A stretch of 64,000 bases of DNA from a virus, in IMG/VR virus record IMGVR_UViG_3300050343_000243, positions 1-64,000 of that record, one strand, 5' to 3'. The notes below the pieces were generated by a model. It did no database searches and was not told the DNA's origin. It was given only the letters and a program-made list of their open reading frames with translations. This document shows, piece after piece, positions 15,471 through 27,650 of the stretch. Position 1 is the first letter of the stretch; each line of letters starts with the position of its first letter. Both the position numbers and the translations under genes were made by a program.

Positions 15471-16002
15471 CGGTTGACTCCAATAACAACCGTTTACAAG
15501 CAGCAGCGCAATGCTCTCATTTAGTGTCCACGAAGCCATACAGTGTATTTGGCTTACCTGTGGAAAACTATATTATTTTATTGAGAAGTATTACGAGCTG
15601 CTTTTTGCCAAAAGTTCGCCTATAGGGGGCTAAAAATGGTACAAAATTTTAGACGTGTTTAATACCCTCTGTACCCGAACTACTGGTGCAACAAAAAAAA
15701 TAACTACTGATACAACTGATGTTTCACCGCTCGCTTCGCTCGCTTGTTAACAACTGTTGTTCGATTGCTTCGCAATCTCACGTTTAATCCTTTGTTCACG
15801 CAAGTCAACACACTTCAGTTAGTACACGATTGTGTAACACATCTGTTCTTCTGCATCGTGTGTTTCCTACTTGCGCTCACATCTGTTAGCAGAAGTTACT
15901 ACCGCTGTCTTTCATTCGTTGAAATCACACGCGAGAACTTATGCGTAACTTAAGTGAACCCTTGATTCGCTTCGGGTACTACACCCTACCTCACCTACCC
16001 GT
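15471..16002. other. Non-coding stretch of the 15.3-16.0 kb control region
   Basis: No convincing gene was seen. It contains a tandem 9-base repeat CGCTCGCTT (15728-15745), a small perfect hairpin GATTGC-ttc-GCAATC (15763-15777) and many short A/T-rich tracts. Small possible reading frames (for example ATG at 15720 and at about 15941) have no ribosome site or recognisable product. Promoters for both flanking transcription units are expected here, but I could not assign exact boxes. Confidence 0.4.
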
Positions 16003-16020
16003 GCCCACTCCGTGGGCTTT
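16003..16020 (+). terminator. Hairpin ahead of first small-gene cassette
   Basis: Perfect stem GCCCAC-tcc-GTGGGC followed by a short T-run (CTTTAT). It is the first of the series of leader or terminator hairpins in the array. Confidence 0.55.
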
Positions 16021-16048
16021 ATAACCATGTGTCTTTTACATAATTCAC

Positions 16049-16162
16049 ATGTTTCTTGTATTCAATTCATGGCTCGTTAGTAACGCGCTCATCATCAATG
16101 AATTCGGTAATCGTTACGCCTATACCTGGCGTGGTGAACCATTGTTCTGTTCAATTAAATGA
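16049..16162 (+). CDS. 37-residue orphan peptide, cassette 1
   Basis: ATG MFLVFNSWLV to CSIK. The start codon lies in CACATG (16046-16051), which pairs with CATGTG at 16026-16031, so the start would be in the stem of an RNA hairpin with a 14-base loop. The gene lies between two GC hairpins. No known family. The regular cassette structure supports expression. Confidence 0.45.
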   Translation: MFLVFNSWLVSNALIINEFGNRYAYTWRGEPLFCSIK

Positions 16163-16171
16163 ACCATAACT

Positions 16172-16190
16172 CCCCACTCTGTGGGGTTTT
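16172..16190 (+). terminator. Rho-independent terminator
   Basis: CCCCAC-tct-GTGGGG stem followed by TTTTT, 9 bases after the preceding stop. Confidence 0.75.
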
Positions 16191-16217
16191 TCTTCATGTG
16201 TCTTCTATCTAATTCAC

Positions 16218-16373
16218 ATGCGTAACTTCCAACTTCAAGTTCAATTCAACGGTGTTGGTGAACTCTATACGACCACGTGGTCACCACGTTCTTACAAGTC
16301 CGTATCCACGTTGTACAACATCTACACACGCAGGTTTCCCAATAATATCTATTGGATCTTACCAGTTGATTGA
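16218..16373 (+). CDS. 51-residue orphan protein, cassette 2
   Basis: MRNFQLQVQF to WILPVD, rich in Tyr, Thr and Asn. Its ATG is again inside CACATG (16215-16220) with an upstream CATGTG (16195-16200) at the same 14-base spacing as cassette 1. A terminator follows directly. Unknown function. Confidence 0.5.
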   Translation: MRNFQLQVQFNGVGELYTTTWSPRSYKSVSTLYNIYTRRFPNNIYWILPVD

Positions 16374-16380
16374 ACCTTAT

Positions 16381-16398
16381 CCCCGCTCTGCGGGGTTT
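16381..16398 (+). terminator. Rho-independent terminator
   Basis: CCCCGC-tct-GCGGGG followed by TTTAT, 7 bases after the preceding stop. Confidence 0.7.
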
Positions 16399-16490
16399 AT
16401 CTTTCATTACTTCTTCGATGTAATTGCTTGTGCGTCTATCGCATTTCTTTTGCATCGTTGCTTGTCGGCATCTCTTTATATCTAAATTCA

Positions 16491-16670
16491 ATGACTAACA
16501 ATCCATATGTGGATCAAATAATCCAGCAGACAGGTTGCACTGAACGTGAAGTTCGTGCCTTCTCTGTTCCTATGCGTCCGATGACCTTCCCTTGCGTCAT
16601 CCACGGACGGACATTCGAATCACATGATGACTACATCAATGCGATGTATGACTACCTCGATTCAATGTAG
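16491..16670 (+). CDS. 59-residue small protein
   Basis: MTNNPYVDQIIQQTGCTERE, then a Pro/Met/Phe-containing middle and an acidic Tyr/Asp-rich end. The region between the previous terminator and this ATG is unusually long (about 95 bases). It contains ATTAC and GTAAT arms around an ATG-TAA start-stop pair (16418-16423). Function unknown; a terminator follows. Confidence 0.55.
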   Translation: MTNNPYVDQIIQQTGCTEREVRAFSVPMRPMTFPCVIHGRTFESHDDYINAMYDYLDSM

Positions 16671-16675
16671 CTTTT

Positions 16676-16694
16676 ACCCCCTCCGGGGGTTTTA
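16676..16694 (+). terminator. Rho-independent terminator
   Basis: ACCCCC-tcc-GGGGGT followed by TTTA, 5 bases after the preceding stop. Confidence 0.75.
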
Positions 16695-16722
16695 TTTGCG
16701 CGTGTTCTTCTTACTCACCACT

Positions 16723-16902
16723 GTGTCTAACACTTACACGCCTGTTCTCGTCGGTGCAACTATCGGCCTCGGCCTTGCTGCCGTTGGCTTCTTCACCCTC
16801 CCCTGGTACCACGACTTCCTCGTCTGGTCCTACGCCTCACCTTGGACCTGGATCATTGGTATCTCAGGTGGTGCTGCTCTAGCTATTGCTACAGACGATT
16901 GA
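16723..16902 (+). CDS. Small two-helix membrane protein (GTG start)
   Basis: I chose GTG 16723, giving MSNTYTPVLVGATIG; an in-frame GTG at 16702 is the alternative. The 59 residues contain two hydrophobic segments (PVLVGATIGLGLAAVGFFTL and WTWIIGISGGAALAIA), so an inner or thylakoid membrane location is likely. It does not match a photosystem subunit I can name. The upstream GTGTT and the AACAC after the start could pair. Confidence 0.5.
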   Translation: MSNTYTPVLVGATIGLGLAAVGFFTLPWYHDFLVWSYASPWTWIIGISGGAALAIATDD

Positions 16903-16908
16903 ACCTTA

Positions 16909-16928
16909 ACCCCCTTCGGGGGGTTTAT
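16909..16928 (+). terminator. Rho-independent terminator
   Basis: CCCCC-ttc-GGGGGG stem followed by TTTATTT, directly after the preceding stop. Confidence 0.75.
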
Positions 16929-16957
16929 TTGCATGTGCAATTCATTTACCAATTCAC

Positions 16958-17155
16958 ATGCTTGCCACTAAAGCTATCCTTCACAAAGTCAACCGTACCC
17001 GTGGTCTCATCACTTGGCACTTCGTCGAGAATGAATCTAACGGTAGATGTAAAGCTATCCGCAATGACGGACGAGTGTTCGATTACTTGAACATCAAAGA
17101 CATGCGAGAAGGCTACCGCTTCATGCGTGATACCTACGGTTTTCAACCTATGTGA
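16958..17155 (+). CDS. 65-residue basic protein, start-hairpin cassette
   Basis: MLATKAILHKVNRTRGLITW, rich in Arg and Lys with a DMREGYRFMRD helix. The ATG is in CACATG (16955-16960), complementary to CATGTG at 16932-16937. No family recognised. Confidence 0.6.
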   Translation: MLATKAILHKVNRTRGLITWHFVENESNGRCKAIRNDGRVFDYLNIKDMREGYRFMRDTYGFQPM

Positions 17156-17166
17156 ACAGAGGATAT

Positions 17167-17187
17167 GCCCCTTCCAGGGGCTTTTTC
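17167..17187 (+). terminator. Rho-independent terminator
   Basis: GCCCC-ttcca-GGGGC followed by TTTTTCC. Confidence 0.75.
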
Positions 17188-17233
17188 CTTCTTTGCCTTA
17201 ATTGGCATTGTTCACTTATGATTTAATTTAACT

Positions 17234-17455
17234 ATGGCTTTTCGTATCCCTGGACGTAAAGAAAGCATCCGTGTCTTCGACCGTGTCAAATGTCTGGATA
17301 CACAGTATGACGTCTTCGATGTTGGTGTACAACACGCTGACGGTGGTATCGACTCTGTAGTTGTCGGTGTATCTGCCTACTCTCTCAAGAAGGCTATTGC
17401 TGCACTCAACTCCAAGGCTGATGCCAAGGAAGCAGAAGCTCCCGCTACTGTCTAA
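17234..17455 (+). CDS. 73-residue small protein
   Basis: MAFRIPGRKESIRVFDRVKC; compact predicted alpha/beta with an Ala/Lys/Glu-rich C-terminal tail. Its leader contains the recurring GCATTGTTCACTTATG but no clear start-codon hairpin. A terminator follows 8 bases after the stop. Unknown function. Confidence 0.6.
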   Translation: MAFRIPGRKESIRVFDRVKCLDTQYDVFDVGVQHADGGIDSVVVGVSAYSLKKAIAALNSKADAKEAEAPATV

Positions 17456-17463
17456 TGACTGCT

Positions 17464-17486
17464 CCCCCTTCGGGGGGTTTTTTCTT
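17464..17486 (+). terminator. Rho-independent terminator
   Basis: CCCCC-ttc-GGGGGG followed by TTTTTTC. It lies just before the convergent minus-strand gene. Confidence 0.75.
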
Positions 17487-17507
17487 TTGTTTCGGACAAC
17501 CGTTGAT

Positions 17508-17990
17508 TTACTTGTAGCGAATCATCAGGTTCTCGTCCTCATCCTCCGGTGCTAACGCTGCGGCGATGTCCATCAGACCTTTGCCTGCAAGTGATACACC
17601 TGTTGCTGGTAATACATACCTAGCACTAGCGGAGACTACGGGTTGTCCATATTTCATTGCTTGATGAGCAAGCATCGTTAACCGATCATTCGGATCAACT
17701 CCCTCAATAGTTCCCAACCCTCGTGTAATTGGTGATCCAACAATCTCACCTGTCATATTACGGACAACTCCCATAGGTGTGCCTCCCCTAGGGTCACCTT
17801 CGGGTAGGACAATGGCGTCCCGTACTTTGTCAGCGTACATATCATCAAACTGACGTAACTGTCCTCCAATAGGAGCAGCTGCGGCTACCACTCGTTCTCC
17901 AAGTGAACGCAGCATGTGATCAACCTGATCCTTAACTGTACGTGCATCTCCACGACGGTAAGTACGTCCGGGCTGATTACGATATGCCAT
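17508..17990 (-). CDS. Leftward virion-like protein embedded in the small-gene array
   Basis: I chose ATG 17990 (MAYRNQPGRTYRRGDARTVK) over one three codons upstream because basic starts are typical here. 160 residues, with a Gly/Ala hydrophobic segment near the end (ATGVSLAGKGLMDIAAALA) and an acidic tail. Composition matches the virion proteins at 9-15 kb rather than the small-gene neighbours, so it is probably a dispersed structural gene. Confidence 0.55.
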   Translation of the reverse strand: MAYRNQPGRTYRRGDARTVKDQVDHMLRSLGERVVAAAAPIGGQLRQFDDMYADKVRDAIVLPEGDPRGGTPMGVVRNMTGEIVGSPITRGLGTIEGVDPNDRLTMLAHQAMKYGQPVVSASARYVLPATGVSLAGKGLMDIAAALAPEDEDENLMIRYK

Positions 17991-18043
17991 TGTTACCATT
18001 TATTTAACACCCCTCTATTGTATTCAATTAGGCTTATAAAGAA

Positions 18044-18229
18044 ATGATTAAGATACTAATAGCTACCCTGCTAATAATACCCCCTACCGTACTAATTCCC
18101 GCTACTGCAACACCTAATCTCTGCGAAGAGATAGAAGCTGTGCTGTGGGAAGCGGTAGAGGATGGGTACATAAAAGAGCAGGTGGCCATAAGAGTGGCTG
18201 GTAACTGCTCACTCGAAACATACGAATAA
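18044..18229 (+). CDS. Small exported protein with signal peptide
   Basis: 61 residues. MIKILIATLLIIPPTVLIPATATP is a classic signal peptide, with cleavage likely after ATA, leaving about 38 mature residues with two Cys that could form a disulfide. One of several MIK-starting exported small proteins in this genome. Periplasmic location is inferred; function unknown. Confidence 0.55.
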   Translation: MIKILIATLLIIPPTVLIPATATPNLCEEIEAVLWEAVEDGYIKEQVAIRVAGNCSLETYE

Positions 18230-18237
18230 CAGCCATT

Positions 18238-18258
18238 ACCCCTTCCAGGGGTTTTTTC
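18238..18258 (+). terminator. Rho-independent terminator
   Basis: ACCCC-ttcca-GGGGT followed by TTTTTC. Confidence 0.75.
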
Positions 18259-18283
18259 AAACGTTGTCCTTTGATAAATACGC

Positions 18284-18361
18284 ATGACTACTGCTGTAAT
18301 TATCTTCAGCTGGTTATTCGCCTTTTACGTAATAAAGACGGAAAACCCTTTTGGCTTATGA
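18284..18361 (+). CDS. 25-residue membrane peptide, first of four coupled genes
   Basis: MTTAVIIFSWLFAFYVIKTE followed by NPFGL: one hydrophobic segment. The stop overlaps the next start as ATGA, which suggests translational coupling through four consecutive genes. It is preceded by the recurring leader GTTGTCCTTTGA. Confidence 0.4.
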   Translation: MTTAVIIFSWLFAFYVIKTENPFGL

Positions 18362-18483
18362 CAATGGTGCTATACGCAGCACTCACTATGGTTCTCCATC
18401 TTGAGCTAACTGCAACTCCAATTGTCCTACTGCCATTCATCTTCCCACGGGAAGAAATTGTTCCTATTTCTCTACAACCATGA
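18358..18483 (+). CDS. 41-residue hydrophobic peptide
   Basis: Starts at the ATGA overlap (MTMVLYAALTMVLHLELTAT) and ends IVPISLQP. It is largely hydrophobic, probably a membrane peptide. Its stop overlaps the start of the next gene. Unknown function. Confidence 0.4.
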   Translation: MTMVLYAALTMVLHLELTATPIVLLPFIFPREEIVPISLQP

Positions 18484-18605
18484 TTCAATTCGACTCACAA
18501 ACTATCATCCTGGCTATCATTGGTATGACAGGACTATTTGCTACTGCAACAGTCCTTTCGTACAGCTTTAAGCGCAACAGAACAGGTAACGGAAGGTACC
18601 AATGA
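18480..18605 (+). CDS. 41-residue single-pass membrane peptide
   Basis: MIQFDSQTIILAIIGMTGLF then ATATVLSYSF and a basic tail KRNRTGNGRYQ. One transmembrane helix with the basic end probably cytoplasmic. The stop overlaps the next start (ATGA). Confidence 0.45.
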   Translation: MIQFDSQTIILAIIGMTGLFATATVLSYSFKRNRTGNGRYQ

Positions 18606-18823
18606 GAACATTAGATGGGAAAGAGCTCTCTGCTCTCAAAGACGAATATGCTTCTGCCGTTGTCGAAAAGATGACGAATGCAGAAGCTCGATCATATCTA
18701 CGTCAGATTATCTACAACGATGTTGCTGTAGCTGACGGTCTGGACCTCTCTAAACGAATACTCAAAGTGTTCGGTGAAGAAGAGTACGACGATATGGTTG
18801 AGTTCGTCACCCGTAATAACTAG
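18602..18823 (+). CDS. 73-residue acidic helical protein
   Basis: MRTLDGKELSALKDEYASAV; predicted all-helical, soluble. It is the last member of a four-gene coupled unit whose first three products are membrane peptides. Not recognised. Confidence 0.55.
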   Translation: MRTLDGKELSALKDEYASAVVEKMTNAEARSYLRQIIYNDVAVADGLDLSKRILKVFGEEEYDDMVEFVTRNN

Positions 18824-18851
18824 GTAGGGTATCCTCTCCTCTAAACCGAAT

Positions 18852-18880
18852 AGCCTGGTCAAAAGATCAGGCTTAATATA
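18852..18880 (+). terminator. Probable terminator hairpin
   Basis: AGCCTGGTC-aaaa-GATCAGGCT stem with one G-U pair, followed by a weak T/A tract. Confidence 0.5.
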
Positions 18881-18905
18881 AATCTAGTGATATATAAATA
18901 AGCAC

Positions 18906-19148
18906 ATGGGCTTCTATAACAATCCCTTCCAACTAGTGAACGACCTAGTGAACATCCCTTTCGGCTCCGATGTATATGTCATCTCTGATGAGAAATATAA
19001 GGAGTTAAAACAGAAACAGGCAAGAGATGAAATCTCTGTGCTCGAACGTAGGCTCGAATCTTACGAAGTCGCGGCTACGAAACTACGAGATACCATCGCT
19101 TCTCTAAATGAGGAGCATGGTTTGCTCCCACCTCCTACTGATAAGTAA
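18906..19148 (+). CDS. 80-residue coiled-coil protein
   Basis: The N-terminal part (MGFYNNPFQLVNDLVNIPFG) is followed by a charged helical region (about 32-70) with heptad-like spacing. No family recognised. It has its own terminator. Confidence 0.6.
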   Translation: MGFYNNPFQLVNDLVNIPFGSDVYVISDEKYKELKQKQARDEISVLERRLESYEVAATKLRDTIASLNEEHGLLPPPTDK

Positions 19149-19153
19149 CCAAT

Positions 19154-19173
19154 GCCCCCTCCGGGGGCTTTTT
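19154..19173 (+). terminator. Rho-independent terminator
   Basis: GCCCCC-tcc-GGGGGC followed by TTTTT. Confidence 0.8.
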
Positions 19174-19199
19174 AGTCAGTTGTTCTTTGATTGTCTCTT

Positions 19200-19445
19200 A
19201 TGACTATCATCTCAACTGCGAAACCTGTATCTCTTGAAGATGCTTTGGACATCGCTGAACAGCGTGCTTATGCCGCTAAAACACCTGCCTTCCCTCCTAT
19301 TACCGACACTATTGTCTGGTTTAAACAGGTGGACTGGGCAGATGTACGTCAACGTGCTCGGGCTGGTGTCAACAATGTTGGTCTTGTCCTCGCTGTCGTT
19401 GGCGAGAAAGTACATGACTTTGGTGCCTTCTTGGCAAACGTCTGA
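19200..19445 (+). CDS. 81-residue small protein, start-hairpin cassette
   Basis: I chose ATG 19200 (MTIISTAKPVSLEDALDIAE) over an upstream TTG. The sequence TGACTA overlapping this start (19201-19206) is complementary to TAGTCA at 19173-19178. The C-terminal half is mildly hydrophobic (NNVGLVLAVVGEKVHDFGAF). Unknown function. Confidence 0.6.
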   Translation: MTIISTAKPVSLEDALDIAEQRAYAAKTPAFPPITDTIVWFKQVDWADVRQRARAGVNNVGLVLAVVGEKVHDFGAFLANV

Positions 19446-19451
19446 ACTTAT

Positions 19452-19473
19452 GCCCCCCCTGGGGGCTTTTCTT
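19452..19473 (+). terminator. Rho-independent terminator
   Basis: GC-rich stem (run of C, single T, GGGGGC) followed by TTTTCTTT. Confidence 0.75.
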
Positions 19474-19498
19474 TCATTTGTCCTACAAATGATTGCAC

Positions 19499-19585
19499 AT
19501 GTCATCAATCCTGATTGCACACCTGCAAAAACAAGCAGCTCGTCGCTTACGTATTGAGAAGCAATATGCGCTCGCTCGTAAGTAA
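19499..19585 (+). CDS. 28-residue basic peptide (start uncertain)
   Basis: MSSILIAHLQKQAARRLRIE then KQYALARK; amphipathic basic helix. The stop lies 8 bases before the next terminator, which favours this frame. A competing 22-residue frame starts at ATG 19489, the one sealed by the leader inverted repeat CATTTG/CAAATG. Only one is probably real. Confidence 0.35.
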   Translation: MSSILIAHLQKQAARRLRIEKQYALARK

Positions 19586-19592
19586 GGAACCT

Positions 19593-19615
19593 GCCCCCTC
19601 TGGGGGCTTTGTTTT
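19593..19615 (+). terminator. Rho-independent terminator
   Basis: GCCCCC-tct-GGGGGC followed by TTTGTTTT. Confidence 0.8.
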
Positions 19616-19638
19616 CCATTGTCTTCTATTTCTGAACA

Positions 19639-19785
19639 ATGGAACTCTATTCAGAACTTTCCTTGATCTCCGATTACAAGGAAGAAACCTACGACTGGAT
19701 GTCATCTGATGACATTGACGTCGATGACTACGAGTACGTCCAGAACCTCGCTTCGGGCGTTGCCTCTCAATCTCGGTACTTCTGA
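19639..19785 (+). CDS. 48-residue acidic protein, clearest start-hairpin cassette
   Basis: MELYSELSLISDYKEETYDW, very acidic (DDIDVDDYE). ACAATGG (19636-19642), which contains the start codon, is a perfect inverted repeat of CCATTGT (19616-19622). Flanked on both sides by terminators. Unknown function. Confidence 0.5.
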   Translation: MELYSELSLISDYKEETYDWMSSDDIDVDDYEYVQNLASGVASQSRYF

Positions 19786-19791
19786 ACTTAT

Positions 19792-19813
19792 GCCCCCCCT
19801 GGGGGCTTTTCTT
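19792..19813 (+). terminator. Rho-independent terminator
   Basis: GC-rich stem followed by TTTTCTTT; nearly identical to the one at 19452. Confidence 0.75.
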
Positions 19814-19837
19814 TAATTTGTAGTTCTCGTTATATTC

Positions 19838-20230
19838 ATGAGCGATTCAATCGAAAACACTCTTCCCAACTCAATCAGCACTGCTGATCTACAAAAGTTG
19901 GCAGACGCTGCTGCAGAAGCAGGGTCTAACAAGAAGACTGAAGAGGAGAAAACCTACGGTGGACTCACCGTTGACGAACTCTGGGATGTCGCAGACGCAG
20001 GTTTAACTCTTATTCAAGAGAATTGTTCCCATCCCCTTGGACACAAGGTTGCTGCCATCATTGTCATGGGTAACATGCTCAATTGGCACAATAAGATGGC
20101 TGAGCAAATGATGGAAGATGGCGAATTTTCAAATGTTGCCGCTTGGCTCAAAGACGCAGGTAAATTCCAAGCCATCATGAACATCCTTCAAACCATTGAA
20201 ATTGGTGACGACGACCCTACAACTCTCTGA
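19838..20230 (+). CDS. 130-residue acidic helical protein
   Basis: MSDSIENTLPNSISTADLQK; predicted mostly helical and acidic, with a central TVDELWDVADAGLTLIQENC helix. It is the largest unassigned product of the array. No enzymatic motif seen. Terminators lie on both sides, so it is a monocistronic cassette. Confidence 0.65.
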   Translation: MSDSIENTLPNSISTADLQKLADAAAEAGSNKKTEEEKTYGGLTVDELWDVADAGLTLIQENCSHPLGHKVAAIIVMGNMLNWHNKMAEQMMEDGEFSNVAAWLKDAGKFQAIMNILQTIEIGDDDPTTL

Positions 20231-20236
20231 TCCTTT

Positions 20237-20262
20237 GCCCCCCCCCTGGGGGCTTTTCTTTT
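20237..20262 (+). terminator. Rho-independent terminator
   Basis: Long C-run, single T, GGGGGC, then TTTTCTTTT. Confidence 0.75.
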
Positions 20263-20284
20263 ATTTGTACTTAGTAAAATACAA

Positions 20285-20446
20285 ATGCAGTGGGCAGTTA
20301 TGACCAACGCTCAAGAATGTCTTGGCGTATGGGTTTCATATGTAGATGCAGCACAGTTTGTATCTGACAACTGTGAACATGAGAATGACATCTATGTCAT
20401 CCCTTCCGAGGAGCTCACTAGTGAGACTGTCCTCTTGAATGCCTGA
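20285..20446 (+). CDS. 53-residue acidic protein, start-hairpin cassette
   Basis: MQWAVMTNAQECLGVWVSYV, acidic C-terminus. ACAAAT containing the start codon (ACAAATG, start 20285) is complementary to ATTTGT about 20 bases upstream. Followed by a terminator 4 bases after the stop. Unknown function. Confidence 0.5.
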   Translation: MQWAVMTNAQECLGVWVSYVDAAQFVSDNCEHENDIYVIPSEELTSETVLLNA

Positions 20447-20450
20447 CCTT

Positions 20451-20470
20451 GCCCCCTCTGGGGGCTTTCA
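20451..20470 (+). terminator. Rho-independent terminator
   Basis: GCCCCC-tct-GGGGGC followed by TTTCA; short U-tract. Confidence 0.7.
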
Positions 20471-20499
20471 CAATCATTGTTCTTCAATTGATTGCGTTT

Positions 20500-20712
20500 A
20501 TGGCAACTTCCTTCGATTTCACCATCATCAGTGACACCACTGTACCTGGTATTTCGTTGGTCGTAAGTCATAACGAAGATGCATTCAGCTACATCACGGA
20601 AGAAGAGAACATGACCTGTCTAGATGATGGATCTGTTCCTCTTGCTACTGACAAAGTCGGTGACTTCATTTCTGACGCTGGTTGGGATAAATACTCCTGC
20701 GAACTCGTTTGA
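20500..20712 (+). CDS. 70-residue acidic protein
   Basis: I chose ATG 20500 (MATSFDFTIISDTTVPGISL). Its leader has a strong hairpin CAATCaTTG-ttctt-CAAtTGATTG that ends 5 bases before the ATG rather than including it. Probably a small beta-rich protein. Unknown function. Confidence 0.55.
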   Translation: MATSFDFTIISDTTVPGISLVVSHNEDAFSYITEEENMTCLDDGSVPLATDKVGDFISDAGWDKYSCELV

Positions 20713-20727
20713 CTTCGATCAACCATT

Positions 20728-20748
20728 GCCCCCTCCGGGGGCTTTATC
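20728..20748 (+). terminator. Rho-independent terminator
   Basis: GCCCCC-tcc-GGGGGC followed by TTTAT. Confidence 0.75.
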
Positions 20749-20773
20749 TCTCATTGTTCTTTACATCACATTC

Positions 20774-21202
20774 ATGACTGACAAGACCTACGCATCATTC
20801 AACGCTCTCACCATCACTGGTCGCGTTTCTCATGCGGAAATGGTAGAAGGTAAGTATGGCAAGTTTCTTGCTGTAACTCTCCTGTCTGAATTGCAGAATG
20901 ACGCACCTGCTGTCGCTGTTCAATTCAATCAAACTTCTGGTCTTCTCTTCTCCATCTTTGGTAAAGACGAGACTGCACTGCAGGGTCGTCTGGTTACTAT
21001 CACTGGACATCTTGAGTCCTTCACCGAACTCTACTTCGATAAGAAGATCGGTAAGACCAAGCGCCTTCAGCGTCCCCGTCTCCAACTGTCCAAGGCAGTT
21101 GTTCTCGACGGTGGTCTTGGACCTAGCAAGCGTAAGGATGAGCCAGTCGATTCCGATATCGAGATCGATGAAGCTCCTGAACTTGCATCTGCAGAGTACT
21201 GA
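20774..21202 (+). CDS. OB-fold-like protein, possible ssDNA-binding protein
   Basis: I chose ATG 20774 (MTDKTYASFNALTITGRVSH); the upstream in-frame extension would run through the terminator. 142 residues with alternating beta segments (ALTITGRVSH, GRLVTITGHLESF) and a strongly acidic tail (DSDIEIDEAPE) like the protein-interaction tail of SSBs. The SSB role is inferred from fold-like pattern only. It has its own strong terminator. Confidence 0.5.
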   Translation: MTDKTYASFNALTITGRVSHAEMVEGKYGKFLAVTLLSELQNDAPAVAVQFNQTSGLLFSIFGKDETALQGRLVTITGHLESFTELYFDKKIGKTKRLQRPRLQLSKAVVLDGGLGPSKRKDEPVDSDIEIDEAPELASAEY

Positions 21203-21214
21203 TGCAGCCACGTG

Positions 21215-21248
21215 GCACCCTTCGGGGTGCTGCGTTTTTTATTTTTTA
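21215..21248 (+). terminator. Strong Rho-independent terminator
   Basis: GCACCC-ttcg-GGGTGC stem, extended by GCA/TGC, followed by GTTTTTTATTTTTT. Confidence 0.85.
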
Positions 21249-21267
21249 AAACTGACTAGGACATACT

Positions 21268-21477
21268 ATGACTACATCAAAAATCACTTATGAGATCCAA
21301 AAGAGCCGCTACGGACTCTATACATCAGTACAAACTGATGGAACTCGTATGGTCACAGGACCCACAGAAGACGCTTGTCGTTGGGTGACTGATAATATCC
21401 ACATTCCGGTGCTTGAAGGCACCTACAAAGGCTTCACAAGTGTCCCTCGTAGCGCTACTGTTGACGGGAAACTATAA
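21268..21477 (+). CDS. 69-residue small protein
   Basis: MTTSKITYEIQKSRYGLYTS; beta-rich pattern, basic. Followed by a virion-like small gene without a terminator between them. Function unknown. Confidence 0.6.
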   Translation: MTTSKITYEIQKSRYGLYTSVQTDGTRMVTGPTEDACRWVTDNIHIPVLEGTYKGFTSVPRSATVDGKL

Positions 21478-21503
21478 ACTAGTAGTACTACTAATTAAAG
21501 CAG

Positions 21504-21680
21504 ATGAATATCCAACGCTTTGCCGGTGACAGCAAAATAATGCAAAAGATGGCAGCTGATATGGCAGCCAACGAAGCACTCATGCGTCGTAATCAAAGCG
21601 AAGCTATGCAGAATGCATACCTAGCAAGATCTAGAGATATATCCGCTACTGGTATCACTAATGCCGGAGCATTTTTTTAG
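21504..21680 (+). CDS. 58-residue short relative of the shared virion module
   Basis: MNIQRFAGDSKIMQKMAADM: an RFAG-type start followed by an Ala/Met/Asn-rich helix and a TGITNAGAFF end. It resembles the N-terminal region of the virion proteins at 6275, 8011 and 8784. It converges with, and overlaps by 23 bases, the leftward gene ending at 21658. Probably a minor virion component. Confidence 0.5.
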   Translation: MNIQRFAGDSKIMQKMAADMAANEALMRRNQSEAMQNAYLARSRDISATGITNAGAFF

Positions 21681-22554
21681 AACCATTCTTGCCATTGCCA
21701 TTTGAACGCAGTACGTCGTGACCAATACTGACATCACCACCACCACTGTTAATAACTAGAGCACGATCTCTATTCTCACCTGGGCTATCCATCCTCTCTG
21801 CTGTATTACCAGGACTTTCAAACCTAGTTGAGGCAATCTCTGGTGCAACTTCAGGACTATCGTATTGATAAGCGTTAGCTAACTCAAGTGGAGACAGACG
21901 ATCAGCTTTCAGTCGCTTAAGAATGCTGTTCTTCAATGAATTGATCATTTCATCCCCTTCCCTGGCACCTTTAGTTCTATTCTCATACTTGCTTTCAAAC
22001 ATCATATTACTCCTGTCAGCAGACTGGCCACCATATTTCGCGTGAGGATTCTTATGTCCTCCATCAAGCCCTGTCTCTTCATATAAAGAACCGGTGACTG
22101 GGTTCTTACCACCATCTAATTCCTCTATTCGATCTAAAGCACGAGCCAAACGTTCAGCACCATCTAACTGTTCTACAGCACCAGAACGTAAACCAACTTT
22201 AGCTAGCTGGCTGGCACCTGCAGGGGCAAGAATCCGTTCACCTGCTTTACGTAACTCTTTTGTATGAGCACTAGGTGAACTAGGCATAACAACAGGTCCG
22301 TTCTTCTCTGCATCTATAGCCATCAACAAAGCATCGATGGTCTGTGGACTATCGCTACCCCCATGCATCTGCTTGGGGATTAACTTCATTTTTCCCCGAT
22401 CTTCAATTCTGCCATTAGTTAATTCGGCTAAGTCATAGTGACTACCTACTGCTTCTTGAAGCATTGCAGCATCACCAAGACCCTGCAGTAGCTCAGGGCT
22501 GATATCACCGTTTTTAATTAATTGTGCTACTAATAATGCTTCATCGAAGACCAC
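21658..22554 (-). CDS. 298-residue leftward virion-like protein
   Basis: Hydrophilic protein rich in Gly, Ser, Asn and charged residues, with a Ser/Asn/Gly-rich basic C-terminus (NSGGGDVSIGHDVLRSNGNG). No enzymatic motif. Composition is like the internal virion proteins at 9-15 kb and unlike the flanking small genes. It is on its own, so it needs a promoter between 22555 and 22679. Confidence 0.55.
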   Translation of the reverse strand: MVFDEALLVAQLIKNGDISPELLQGLGDAAMLQEAVGSHYDLAELTNGRIEDRGKMKLIPKQMHGGSDSPQTIDALLMAIDAEKNGPVVMPSSPSAHTKELRKAGERILAPAGASQLAKVGLRSGAVEQLDGAERLARALDRIEELDGGKNPVTGSLYEETGLDGGHKNPHAKYGGQSADRSNMMFESKYENRTKGAREGDEMINSLKNSILKRLKADRLSPLELANAYQYDSPEVAPEIASTRFESPGNTAERMDSPGENRDRALVINSGGGDVSIGHDVLRSNGNGKNGSKKMLRH

Positions 22555-22679
22555 TCACATACATACTTATGATTATGTTTTTCCCATAAGTATCACTTAC
22601 TACTCCTACATGTTATCTATAACTAATAACTTACTAAAATAAATAAAGAACCCAAAAATACCTATTAGTCAAAACAAAT

Positions 22680-22699
22680 GCCCCCACTGGGGGCTTTAT
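22680..22699 (+). terminator. Cassette hairpin with no rightward gene upstream
   Basis: GCCCCC-act-GGGGGC then TTTATT. The upstream gene is on the opposite strand, so this hairpin belongs to the leader of the following gene as much as to any termination event. Confidence 0.6.
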
Positions 22700-22724
22700 T
22701 CGTTGGTGTCCTTTGAATACATAT

Positions 22725-23285
22725 ATGAGAAGTTTCGCCAATGAAATGTATGTAGGTGTGGAAATCAATCCACCCTGCCCTCACTCTGTAGTTCACGCAT
22801 TCGACCTAGACGACACGCTCTCTTCCAAACCTCAAGGGTTTGACAACACAGGAATGACCAAAGATGAATTCTTTGATGCCAGTCGTGACTTTGAGCCTGA
22901 TATCGCTGTCAAAGATGTTGTTGAACTAATGCATATGCATGGTGATTGCATTGCTATCACTACTGCCCGTCCACCTGAACGCTTGGCCGAGACAGTCCAC
23001 TGGCTGTCAAAGCATGACATTCCTTTTGATCAAATCATTTTGAGCCAAGGAACTGTTCCTTCATCCATTGCCAAACAAGCAATGCTTCAGAAGTTACAAG
23101 ACGACTATCACGAAGTCGGCGTTCTATTTGATGACTCCCCTTACAACATTGAGGGTGCTCGTCTACAAGGCATATCAGCTATTCATCTACGTAAGAACGA
23201 TGAGTACTGGGCCGCTAACCCCGAAGATGTTTACAGGTACGAAGATGAACAAGCACGAGAAGAAGCAAATCAAACTCATTGCTAA
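22725..23285 (+). CDS. HAD-superfamily hydrolase (phosphatase)
   Basis: I chose ATG 22725 (MRSFANEMYVGVEINPPCPH). HAD motif I is FDLDDTLSS, motif II is ITTARPPER (hydroxyl-bearing TT), and the late acidic motif is GVLFDDSPYNIEGA. This is the layout of small phage HADs such as 5'-nucleotidases or polynucleotide 3'-phosphatases, which dephosphorylate nucleotides or DNA/RNA ends. The substrate cannot be assigned. The leader has the recurring GGTGTCCTTTGA but no evident start hairpin. Confidence 0.75.
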   Translation: MRSFANEMYVGVEINPPCPHSVVHAFDLDDTLSSKPQGFDNTGMTKDEFFDASRDFEPDIAVKDVVELMHMHGDCIAITTARPPERLAETVHWLSKHDIPFDQIILSQGTVPSSIAKQAMLQKLQDDYHEVGVLFDDSPYNIEGARLQGISAIHLRKNDEYWAANPEDVYRYEDEQAREEANQTHC

Positions 23286-23391
23286 AGCAGACGCTTGCAC
23301 CTCACGTGAGGAAGCTGTGAAACTTATACTCAAAGCAGAGAAACTTCGAGCTAAATTATTAGCGAAGAAGCTTTTATCTGATGCCAATTAA
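23245..23391 (+). CDS. 48-residue Lys-rich helical protein
   Basis: MNKHEKKQIKLIAKADACTS then an amphipathic Lys/Ala/Leu helix. It starts inside the HAD gene (41-base overlap) in another frame and overlaps the following gene by 11 bases. Nucleic-acid binding is possible from charge only. Confidence 0.5.
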   Translation: MNKHEKKQIKLIAKADACTSREEAVKLILKAEKLRAKLLAKKLLSDAN

Positions 23392-23464
23392 CACTGTATT
23401 ATTCGGTCTCGCAATGTTCCTCATTGGCGAGATCACCGGAATAATTATACCTACCTTACATTAA
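23381..23464 (+). CDS. 27-residue membrane peptide
   Basis: MPINTVLFGLAMFLIGEITG then IIIPTLH. Single hydrophobic helix. Its stop overlaps the start of the metallopeptidase-like gene by one base, so the two may be coupled. Confidence 0.4.
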   Translation: MPINTVLFGLAMFLIGEITGIIIPTLH

Positions 23465-23952
23465 TGATCAAAAAAATATTTACTGTACTTGCAGGACTTG
23501 CAATTGCTTCTCCTGTCAATGCAACTAGTTGGACAGATGTCAATACTCTGACCGATCTAGTAAAACAAACTGGAACTACCGTTGAAGCGCGAGACTGTCA
23601 ACGCGAAGGTCTACAAGGCTTTTATCAATATGATCAAGAAGCAGGGATAGATCTACTCGTTGTTTGCTCAAACGTTGTTGATATGTCTGACTCCGATGCT
23701 GTATGGGAAGTTGTTTCTCATGAAGCAACGCATGTCATGCAAGCATGTATAGGTGGACCTGTCTTGAAAGACACCTATATCCCCCGTGTATTGCGTGAAC
23801 TGCAAGAAACAGCTCCTCACTATTATCAAACTCTTCAGCAATATCGTGGCGATCACAAACGCTACGAGCTAGAAGCGTTCTGGATGGAACTACGTGCTCC
23901 AAATGTTGTCCATGAATTCTTGGACAGATCTTGTTTCGCACAACCTGAATGA
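23464..23952 (+). CDS. Exported protein with HEXXH zinc-peptidase-like motif
   Basis: 162 residues. The signal peptide MIKKIFTVLAGLAIASPVNA has probable cleavage after VNA. HEATH (residues 86-90) fits the HEXXH zinc-binding motif within WEVVSHEATHVMQ, followed by Cys95. Several conserved-looking Cys suggest an oxidising, periplasmic environment. A secreted metallopeptidase is plausible, but the third zinc ligand is not obvious. Role in infection unknown. Confidence 0.5.
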   Translation: MIKKIFTVLAGLAIASPVNATSWTDVNTLTDLVKQTGTTVEARDCQREGLQGFYQYDQEAGIDLLVVCSNVVDMSDSDAVWEVVSHEATHVMQACIGGPVLKDTYIPRVLRELQETAPHYYQTLQQYRGDHKRYELEAFWMELRAPNVVHEFLDRSCFAQPE

Positions 23953-23957
23953 CATCT

Positions 23958-23978
23958 GCCCCCTCCGGGGGCTTTGTC
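23958..23978 (+). terminator. Rho-independent terminator
   Basis: GCCCCC-tcc-GGGGGC followed by TTTGT. Confidence 0.75.
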
Positions 23979-24004
23979 TGTTCATGTTCTTTCTCTAGGA
24001 ACTT

Positions 24005-24223
24005 ATGAACATCCCAATGGTGAGTATCCCTCAAGTCCAACTTGATCAACTCATTCGAGATCTGCAAAAAGCAGAAGGTTACTGCCGTAGGGCACGTCCT
24101 GCTTCACGTCATCCGTCTCGTGAAGAACTATTCGCAGAACCTACCGAGTTCTACTCCGGTGCATCTGGCTTTGCCGGTGCAACTCTGCGGAATGCGATTC
24201 AAACTATCGAATCGTACCTGTGA
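24005..24223 (+). CDS. 72-residue small protein, start-hairpin cassette
   Basis: MNIPMVSIPQVQLDQLIRDL, basic middle, helical ends. TTCAT-GTTC (23981-23989) pairs with GAAC (23999-24002) and with ATGAA (24005-24009), so the start codon lies in the stem. Unknown function. Confidence 0.6.
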   Translation: MNIPMVSIPQVQLDQLIRDLQKAEGYCRRARPASRHPSREELFAEPTEFYSGASGFAGATLRNAIQTIESYL

Positions 24224-26639: not shown

Positions 26640-26656
26640 GCCCCCTCCGGGGGCTT
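26640..26656 (+). terminator. Rho-independent terminator-like hairpin
   Basis: GCCCCC-tcc-GGGGGC with only a short T-run (TTGATCC). Followed by another hairpin CGCTTT-gaaaa-AAGCG in the leader of the DUF932 gene. Confidence 0.6.
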
Positions 26657-26705
26657 GATCCTTTCGTGCGCTTTGAAAAAAGCGTGTTCTTTATATGTCA
26701 ATTCA

Positions 26706-27650
26706 ATGCCCGCAAATTTCACATCTGGCTGGCTCGGCAACGGCGAACGTGCATGGCACGAAATGGGGGTCGTCACCGACGGCACCCTGCCAGCGCGAGA
26801 AGCGTTTGAAACTGCCGACGCTTTATTCACAGTCGAAAAGCGAGAACTTCTCGTTCCAGTCACATTTAACGGACAAGCCTCAGTTGCCGCATCAGGCACC
26901 TACGGAGTTGTCCGTACTGACAGTCAAGGATTACTCGGTGTTGTCAGCAAGCAATATGAAATCGTTCAAAACGATTCGCTCCTTCGGATGGCTGAATTCA
27001 TCCGCGAGGAGGCAGACATGGACTGCGTCATCGTTCTATCGGACGGAGCCAAAGTCTGCTTTACCGCCACACTCCGTGGTGCGGAGACGGACATCGTCCC
27101 TGGCGACACAGTCAAACGACGCATCGTTGGCTATCTAGGACACGACGGCAAGACTGGTTGTGGTGCAAAGTTCACCAACATCCGTGTTGTCTGTCAAAAC
27201 ACACTGACTGCCGCTCTCAATGAGAGTGGTGCTCAATCAAGCATCACCCATAAGGGTACTGCCAACGCTAACTTCGATGCTCTTATCAACAGTATTGACG
27301 TAGCACGGCAAGACTTTGCCGCTGAATGTGATCTGATGCGTGAGTTTTCACGTACCCACATGAGTGCTACTGGCTTCAACGAGTTTGCTGACCACGTTTA
27401 CAACATCAGTGAAGGTGAAGTATTTCGCAAACGTCAGAAGCTAGAGCAAGCATTCCGTGCTGGTTATGGTTCGGAGTATGCCTCATTCTCACTATGGAAT
27501 GGCTTGAATGCCATCACCCAAGTAGAAACAAGCACCCGTGGCACTACAGCTGCCAAGGGTAGAGCACAGTTTGCACGTGGCACCTTTGGTTCTGGTGCTG
27601 TTATCAGCAAAAAAGCTTTCTCTGTTGCACGTGACCTAGTTACTGGCTGA
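26706..27650 (+). CDS. DUF932 phage/plasmid-like protein
   Basis: I chose ATG 26706 (MPANFTSGWLGNGERAWHEM) because the WLGNG..AWHEMGVV start is typical of the DUF932 (TIGR03299-type) family. 314 residues, including VRTDSQGLLGVVSKQYEIVQ, another family hallmark. Members occur in phages and plasmids and are often near replication genes. The biochemical role is not established. It has its own leader and terminator. Confidence 0.75.
   Translation: MPANFTSGWLGNGERAWHEMGVVTDGTLPAREAFETADALFTVEKRELLVPVTFNGQASVAASGTYGVVRTDSQGLLGVVSKQYEIVQNDSLLRMAEFIREEADMDCVIVLSDGAKVCFTATLRGAETDIVPGDTVKRRIVGYLGHDGKTGCGAKFTNIRVVCQNTLTAALNESGAQSSITHKGTANANFDALINSIDVARQDFAAECDLMREFSRTHMSATGFNEFADHVYNISEGEVFRKRQKLEQAFRAGYGSEYASFSLWNGLNAITQVETSTRGTTAAKGRAQFARGTFGSGAVISKKAFSVARDLVTG

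Follow-up and report, generated by a model that had tools for sequence, protein, structure and literature searches.

A hairpin, 12-nt spacer and motif cassette with start codons paired beyond chance in the small-gene arrays of uncultured cyanobacterial viruses

A composite cassette upstream of the small genes

The 64,000-nucleotide stretch analysed here (the window) is part of the 79,462-base IMG/VR virus record IMGVR_UViG_3300050343_000243 and carries an array of small genes. Most genes of this array are preceded by one type of cassette, in which a hairpin is followed, after exactly 12 bases, by the motif TGTTCTTT and then by a start codon. The hairpin, here called SL1, has a GC-rich stem of 6 bp and a loop of 3–5 nt. 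It is followed by a T-rich 12-nt spacer, by TGTYCTTTR and, after a further 11–20 nt, by ATG, GTG or TTG; the repeated unit can be written SL1-12-TGTTCTTTA. The cassette is found in a clade of uncultured cyanobacterial viruses that includes the phage of the window. A sequence-only reading of the window had noticed another element of these leaders, namely hairpins of differing sequence that enclose the start codons. This observation is confirmed and is stronger than originally stated. The start hairpin is real and specific to starts, but it forms only part of a larger cassette and is missing from many leaders. Likewise, the leaders differ in their stems but have TGTYCTTTR in common, and the upstream hairpin at its rigid distance of 12 nt had been overlooked. 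The shared mode of control that was proposed for the array genes is likely.

Spacing is rigid between SL1 and the motif (12 nt) and variable between the motif and the start codon (11–20 nt). A GC stem ends exactly 12 nt 5' of the motif at 71 of the 168 TGT[CT]CTT sites; the counts at distances 11 and 13 stem from the same stems, and other distances yield only 0–2. Permuted motifs did not reproduce the peak at 12 nt. The selection was also reversed, by picking hairpins that precede an ATG reading frame without using the motif as a criterion. The 103 array-strand hairpins obtained in this way have the consensus TYT at positions 1–3 and TGTYCTTT at positions 13–20, and the motif follows none of the 15 hairpins selected on the other strand. 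At non-ATG sites after the motif, GTG or TTG mostly occupies the start position. The covariation score of the SL1 stem is 1.02, against 0.22 after shuffling, and both partners vary freely; since the stems were selected as paired, their 100% pairing holds by construction. A search of Rfam returned no family, only sub-threshold chance matches with none above the gathering score. As far as could be shown, the composite cassette is so far undescribed. Its parts resemble known kinds, and it is therefore not assigned to any single family.

Likeness among SL1 sequences is slightly greater within a genome (0.65) than between orthologous SL1s of different genomes (0.60), and their loops are genome-typical (TAAT, TATC, TCTC, TGTC or TTTC in the window and in the loci L101–L115). 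The leader of a DUF932 gene (26655–26710) is off-pattern: GCCCCCTCCGGGGGC stands 30 nt 5' of TGTTCTT, and a second hairpin, CGCTTT/AAAGCG, abuts the motif. Relatives have a regular 12-nt cassette at this place.

SL1 has features of a terminator, namely a GC stem and 5.0–5.7 T among the 8 nt that follow, but its runs of T are short (2.5–3.7). The hairpins that close gene blocks (17464, 21218, 24236) have runs of T6–T7 and no motif. SL1 often lies 4–15 nt past the preceding stop codon; it also precedes first genes, and at 22680 it stands behind an opposite-strand gene. This placement and the fixed distance from the motif suggest that SL1 is part of the signal of the downstream gene, regardless of any termination that it may bring about.

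Pairing of the start codons

All seven stems quoted in the sequence-only reading are present where it had placed them, and those of the cassettes at 19593 and 23958 are longer than had been noted (Table 1). To obtain a null model, the 5' half of each leader was joined to a randomly drawn 3' half, so that composition and the conserved motif were preserved, and a start stem was counted when a perfect stem of at least 6 bp covered the start codon. In the window, such stems (6–9 bp) are found in 7 of the 14 array leaders, where 1.57 are expected (p<0.001). Paralogous copying probably accounts for the three CATGTG leaders. When a single copy is kept, the count is 5 of 12 against 1.01 expected (p=0.0008), and without any copy it is 4 of 11 against 0.91 (p=0.006). 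Leaders of the relatives have a start stem in 10 of 64 cases (2.7 expected), and all independent leaders of the clade in 16 of 72 (3.5 expected). Across these 72 leaders the excess is maximal at the start codon and declines to both sides. Random ATGs show no significant excess (0–4 of about 72, with about 2.3 expected), and neither do non-cassette genes of the same genome (3/117 versus 3.4; 0/62 on the array strand) or open reading frames of cassette-less relatives (3/111 versus 2.9). A first, narrower test restricted the 5' arm to positions 5' of the motif or within it and gave only a weak excess in the relatives (4/64 versus 1.7). The wider test, which also permits a 5' arm after the motif and gives the clear excess, was chosen once the narrower result had been seen.

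Pairing is kept despite differing sequences, as had been proposed from the window. In orthologous leaders of the SSB-like gene, an ATG, TTG or GTG start lies within a stem of 5 bp or more in 11 of 14 loci, several of which are near-identical genomes. These stems are of four unrelated types (ATGAG/CTCAT, TCAAAGG/CCTTTGA, TCAAAGT/ACTTTGA and ACTACT/AGTAGT). Neither equal pairing in randomised leaders nor a lack of covariation among relatives, the two outcomes that would have counted against the sequence-only reading, was thus observed. The reported scarcity of Shine-Dalgarno sites also held: such sites occur in 4 of 78 cassette leaders, versus 13% of random positions, and are hence rarer than chance. 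The leaders are more folded than chimeric ones (−7.9 versus −6.85 ± 0.19 kcal/mol). In the cassette at 19154, folding favours an alternative structure over the TAGTCA/TGACTA start stem. Pairing of the start codon is a tendency rather than a rule.

Distribution in the clade and a phage IF-1 homologue

Searched with a covariance model of the cassette, the record of the window yields 11 matches, and the 14 other array-bearing records of the clade yield 4–29 each. Most of the longer clade records have 11–29 matches, G045 has seven and a 16.7-kb fragment has four; the cassettes of a genome lie on one strand. The model gives zero matches in Synechococcus phage S-EIV1 (79 kb) and in relatives of 80.5, 70 and 66 kb. 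Two weak matches, the better with an E-value of 0.004, were obtained in a 43.7-kb terminase relative outside the clade (G021). An IF-1 homologue of 74 residues (Table 1) is common to the cassette-bearing clade, with full-length matches 77–89% identical, and is not found in the long cassette-less records (S-EIV1 and the 80.5-, 70- and 66-kb relatives). Few named phages carry relatives of this protein, the Lak megaphages being an example.

Mechanism and alternative explanations

We tentatively prefer, at somewhat less than even confidence, a reading in which the cassette is an RNA signal for the elongation machinery combined with start hairpins that gate translation without Shine-Dalgarno sites. 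The elongating RNA polymerase, with its factors, would read SL1 and TGTYCTTTR jointly on the nascent transcript, as indicated by the rigid 12-nt spacing and the free stem sequence. Since rrn nut-like signals have the same order, a hairpin and then a boxA-like motif, the two elements would probably regulate pausing or termination along an array that has terminator-like hairpins between its genes. A hairpin-stabilised pause, in which the hairpin lies 11–12 nt behind the RNA 3' end and TG at the active site, would also be compatible with this arrangement. In many cassettes a second, weaker hairpin would hold the start codon, and translation would start only once that stem opens. Genes without Shine-Dalgarno sites normally start from unfolded regions (PMC3121790), so paired starts should require an opener. 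This could be the arriving ribosome or an RNA chaperone, and the IF-1 homologue of the clade is a natural but unproven candidate, because E. coli IF1 is both an RNA chaperone and a transcription antiterminator (PMC3017892, PMC8956599).

Several observations weigh against this reading. Neither boxC nor a gene for NusB, NusG or an N-like protein was demonstrated in the phage. The motif differs from the boxA of the host, the internal transcribed spacer (ITS) of Synechococcus carrying AGAACCTTGACAACTGCATA, and in rrn the hairpin and boxA are separated by 2 nt instead of 12. The mean ensemble accessibility of start codons is barely lowered (0.377 versus 0.406 ± 0.026 in chimeric leaders), and the start stem is missing in about half of the leaders of the window and in most leaders of the relatives. 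Co-occurrence of IF-1 and the cassette counts only once, since both sit in one clade. A bolder version, in which SL1 with TGTYCTTT and the start hairpin form a two-hairpin code that is melted by the phage IF-1 and couples antitermination to Shine-Dalgarno-less initiation in one viral regulon, appears highly doubtful.

The main rival is a terminator–promoter cassette, which we hold to be rather unlikely. Here, SL1 would end the preceding transcript, TGTYCTTTR would provide the core for a phage-type promoter of an unusual sort, and the mRNAs would be leaderless or nearly so. The start hairpin, with its 5' arm upstream of the true transcription start, would form only in read-through RNA and silence its translation, a role for which T4 e and soc provide precedent. 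Missing Shine-Dalgarno sites and GTG or TTG starts would thereby be accounted for, and a motif 11–20 nt before the start would fit, although the variability of that distance speaks against a promoter, and the fixed SL1–motif distance of 12 nt is left without explanation. The clade does own a sigma factor (Table 1), but by eye it is RpoD-like, and position counts reveal no −10/−35 consensus at a fixed distance from the motif or the start codon. Between the small genes of T4-like phages, terminator–promoter units termed PeSLs (cited in PMC4503421) offer a known parallel.

An unlikely explanation is a purely translational operator, in which an RNA-binding protein of phage or host, or IF-1 on the 30S subunit, reads the leader (hairpin, TGTYCTTT and start hairpin) and turns translation of the entire set of genes down or up while transcription is unaffected. 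The motif is always followed by a start codon, GTG or TTG included, pairing is specific to starts and the clade has an IF-1 gene, all as such an operator would have it. However, the spacing that is rigid is that between SL1 and the motif, not that between the motif and the start; a large share of leaders have no start stem, and IF-1 is the only RNA-binding regulator identified. Even less probable, in our view, is an assembly of ordinary parts: SL1 as an intrinsic terminator for the gene before it, TGTYCTTT as a U-rich landing stretch for the ribosome (S1-type), cassettes copied within genomes and start stems devoid of function. The GC stem with its T-rich tail, the frequent position of SL1 just past a stop codon and the slightly greater likeness of SL1s within a genome would all be expected of such parts. 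They would not explain why SL1 also precedes first genes and follows the opposite-strand gene, why its T-runs are shorter than those of the motif-less hairpins at array ends, why the spacing stays at 12 although stems are completely replaced, or why start stems are specific to the start codons of cassette genes.

Among promoters of known type, a sigma-70 promoter with the motif as its −35 or −10 element was ruled out by the position counts, and N4-type virion-polymerase hairpin promoters were set aside because stem and loop bases are not conserved.

Comparison with known systems

Every cassette has a hairpin 5' of a linear motif, as do the rrn nut-like signals (boxB hairpin–boxA–boxC). The E. 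coli boxA, TGCTCTTTAACA, has TGYTCTTTA in common with the cassette motif, and in the E. coli rrnA leader (GCCGCT..AGCGGC AC TGCTCTTTAACA) the boxB hairpin is followed by boxA 2 nt on. The boxB–boxA order has been described, as has a boxA held in a stem-loop in M. tuberculosis (PMC6614801). The cassette differs from the rrn signals in its wider gap, in the absence of a demonstrated boxC and in preceding twelve or more small protein-coding genes, each with its own copy. Its motif does not match the boxA of the likely host group, which in the Synechococcus ITS is AGAACCTTGACAAC. Nut sites of the lambda type also combine a hairpin with a boxA-like motif in a phage; however, their order is boxA then boxB, the reverse of that in the cassette, and no N-like protein was found in the cassette phage. 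PeSLs are similarly stem-loop units between small, fast-changing phage genes and are copied within genomes, but the cassette has, by position counts, no sigma-70 early promoter next to its stem-loop; in addition, it has a rigid hairpin–motif distance and start-codon hairpins.

Hairpins that sequester start codons are known from T4 e and soc, RNA thermometers and phage operators. As in these, the start codon lies in a short stem, here paired beyond chance and with repression putative. The array differs in that many genes with unrelated stems are involved, there is no Shine-Dalgarno site to hide, and SL1 and TGTYCTTTR are added. The genes with unfolded starts discussed above lack Shine-Dalgarno sites as well, but cassette starts are paired above chance, unlike those of non-cassette genes of the same phage. 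A viral regulon of this kind goes against the rule of unstructured starts. The hairpin-12-TGTYCTTT unit would provide cyanobacterial viruses with a control signal that is compact and portable, and the IF-1 of the clade offers a testable reason for an 80-kb phage to carry a translation initiation factor. With the covariance model, phages of this group and their control elements can be recognised in metagenomic data.

Features of the window and its relatives

Table 1. Cassettes and associated features (window coordinates unless a contig is named)
Feature	Position	Strand	Components or evidence
Non-coding array leader	15600..16002	+	~400 nt; partly conserved in relatives (CTATAGG..., CCGGTGGAACAAAAAAAATA); alignment
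Cassette 1	16003..16051	+	SL1 16003-16017, 12 nt, TGTCTTT 16030-16036, ATG 16049; start stem CATGTG/CACATG 16026-16031/16046-16051
Cassette 2	16172..16220	+	SL1 16172-16186, TGTCTTC 16199-16205, ATG 16218; start stem CATGTG/CACATG 16195-16200/16215-16220
Cassette	16676..16725	+	SL1 16676-16690, TGTTCTT 16703-16709, GTG 16723; no start stem found
Cassette, degenerate motif TGTGCAA	16908..16961	+	SL1 16908-16925, ATG 16958; start stem GCATGTG/CACATGC 16931-16937/16955-16961, 7 bp
Cassette	18238..18286	+	SL1 18238-18252, TGTCCTT 18265-18271, ATG 18284; no start stem
Cassette	19154..19206	+	SL1 19154-19168, TGTTCTT 19181-19187, ATG 19200; start stem TAGTCA/TGACTA 19173-19178/19201-19206
Cassette	19452..19501	+	SL1 19452-19466, TGTCCTA 19479-19485, ATG 19499; hairpin CATTTGT/ACAAATG 5' of start
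Cassette	19593..19644	+	SL1 19593-19607, TGTCTTC 19620-19626, ATG 19639; start stem TTCCATTGT/ACAATGGAA 19614-19622/19636-19644, 9 bp (noted as CCATTGT/ACAATGG)
Cassette, degenerate motif TGTAGTT	19792..19840	+	SL1 19792-19806, motif 19819-19825, ATG 19838; no 5-bp start stem
Cassette	20237..20287	+	SL1 20237-20253 (5-nt loop), TGTACTT 20266-20272, ATG 20285; start stem ATTTGTA/TACAAAT 20263-20269/20280-20286, 7 bp
Cassette	20451..20502	+	SL1 20451-20465, TGTTCTT 20478-20484, ATG 20500; hairpin CAATCA/TGATTG 5' of start
Cassette, SSB-like gene	20728..20776	+	SL1 20728-20742, TGTTCTT 20755-20761, ATG 20774; start stem only 4 bp
Cassette, PNK-like gene, after opposite-strand gene	22680..22727	+	SL1 22680-22694, TGTCCTT 22707-22713, ATG 22725; no start stem
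Cassette	23958..24011	+	SL1 23958-23972, TGTTCTT 23985-23991, ATG 24005; start stem TGTTCAT/ATGAACA 23979-23985/24005-24011, 7 bp, inner helix GTTC/GAAC (noted as TTCAT-GTTC/GAAC-ATGAA)
IF-1 homologue, 74 aa	34910..35134	+	Pfam PF01176 7e-17; solved IF-1 structures 3e-16; clade distribution
Sigma-70 factor, complete (regions 1.2-4)	contig 76226-77164 (L002 16226-17164), outside window	-	Conserved in clade and close terminase relatives

Among the genes of the record to which the window belongs are psbA and those for ribonucleotide reductase, ThyX, a helicase and a large terminase. The last of these shares 54% identity with the terminase of S-EIV1 and 81–93% with those of several viral contigs. 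The S-EIV1 terminase (L020:14080-16617) contains a large insertion of intein-like look that is not in the terminase of the window. A megablast of the region found nothing useful, nor did tblastn searches of named phages with the SSB-like and PNK-like proteins as queries, and the PNK-like gene of the array has no match of useful identity in any named phage of the collection. The array as a DNA query matched none of the terminase relatives. An exact DNA pattern of the hairpin and motif of the window matched only loci that do not display the array, because the relatives use other stems. The SSB-like protein alone was unsuccessful as a query; with the PNK-like protein, 15 further loci were reached, most of them with an array of the same kind. 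The non-coding stretch that precedes the first cassette of the window is probably the upstream start of array transcription.

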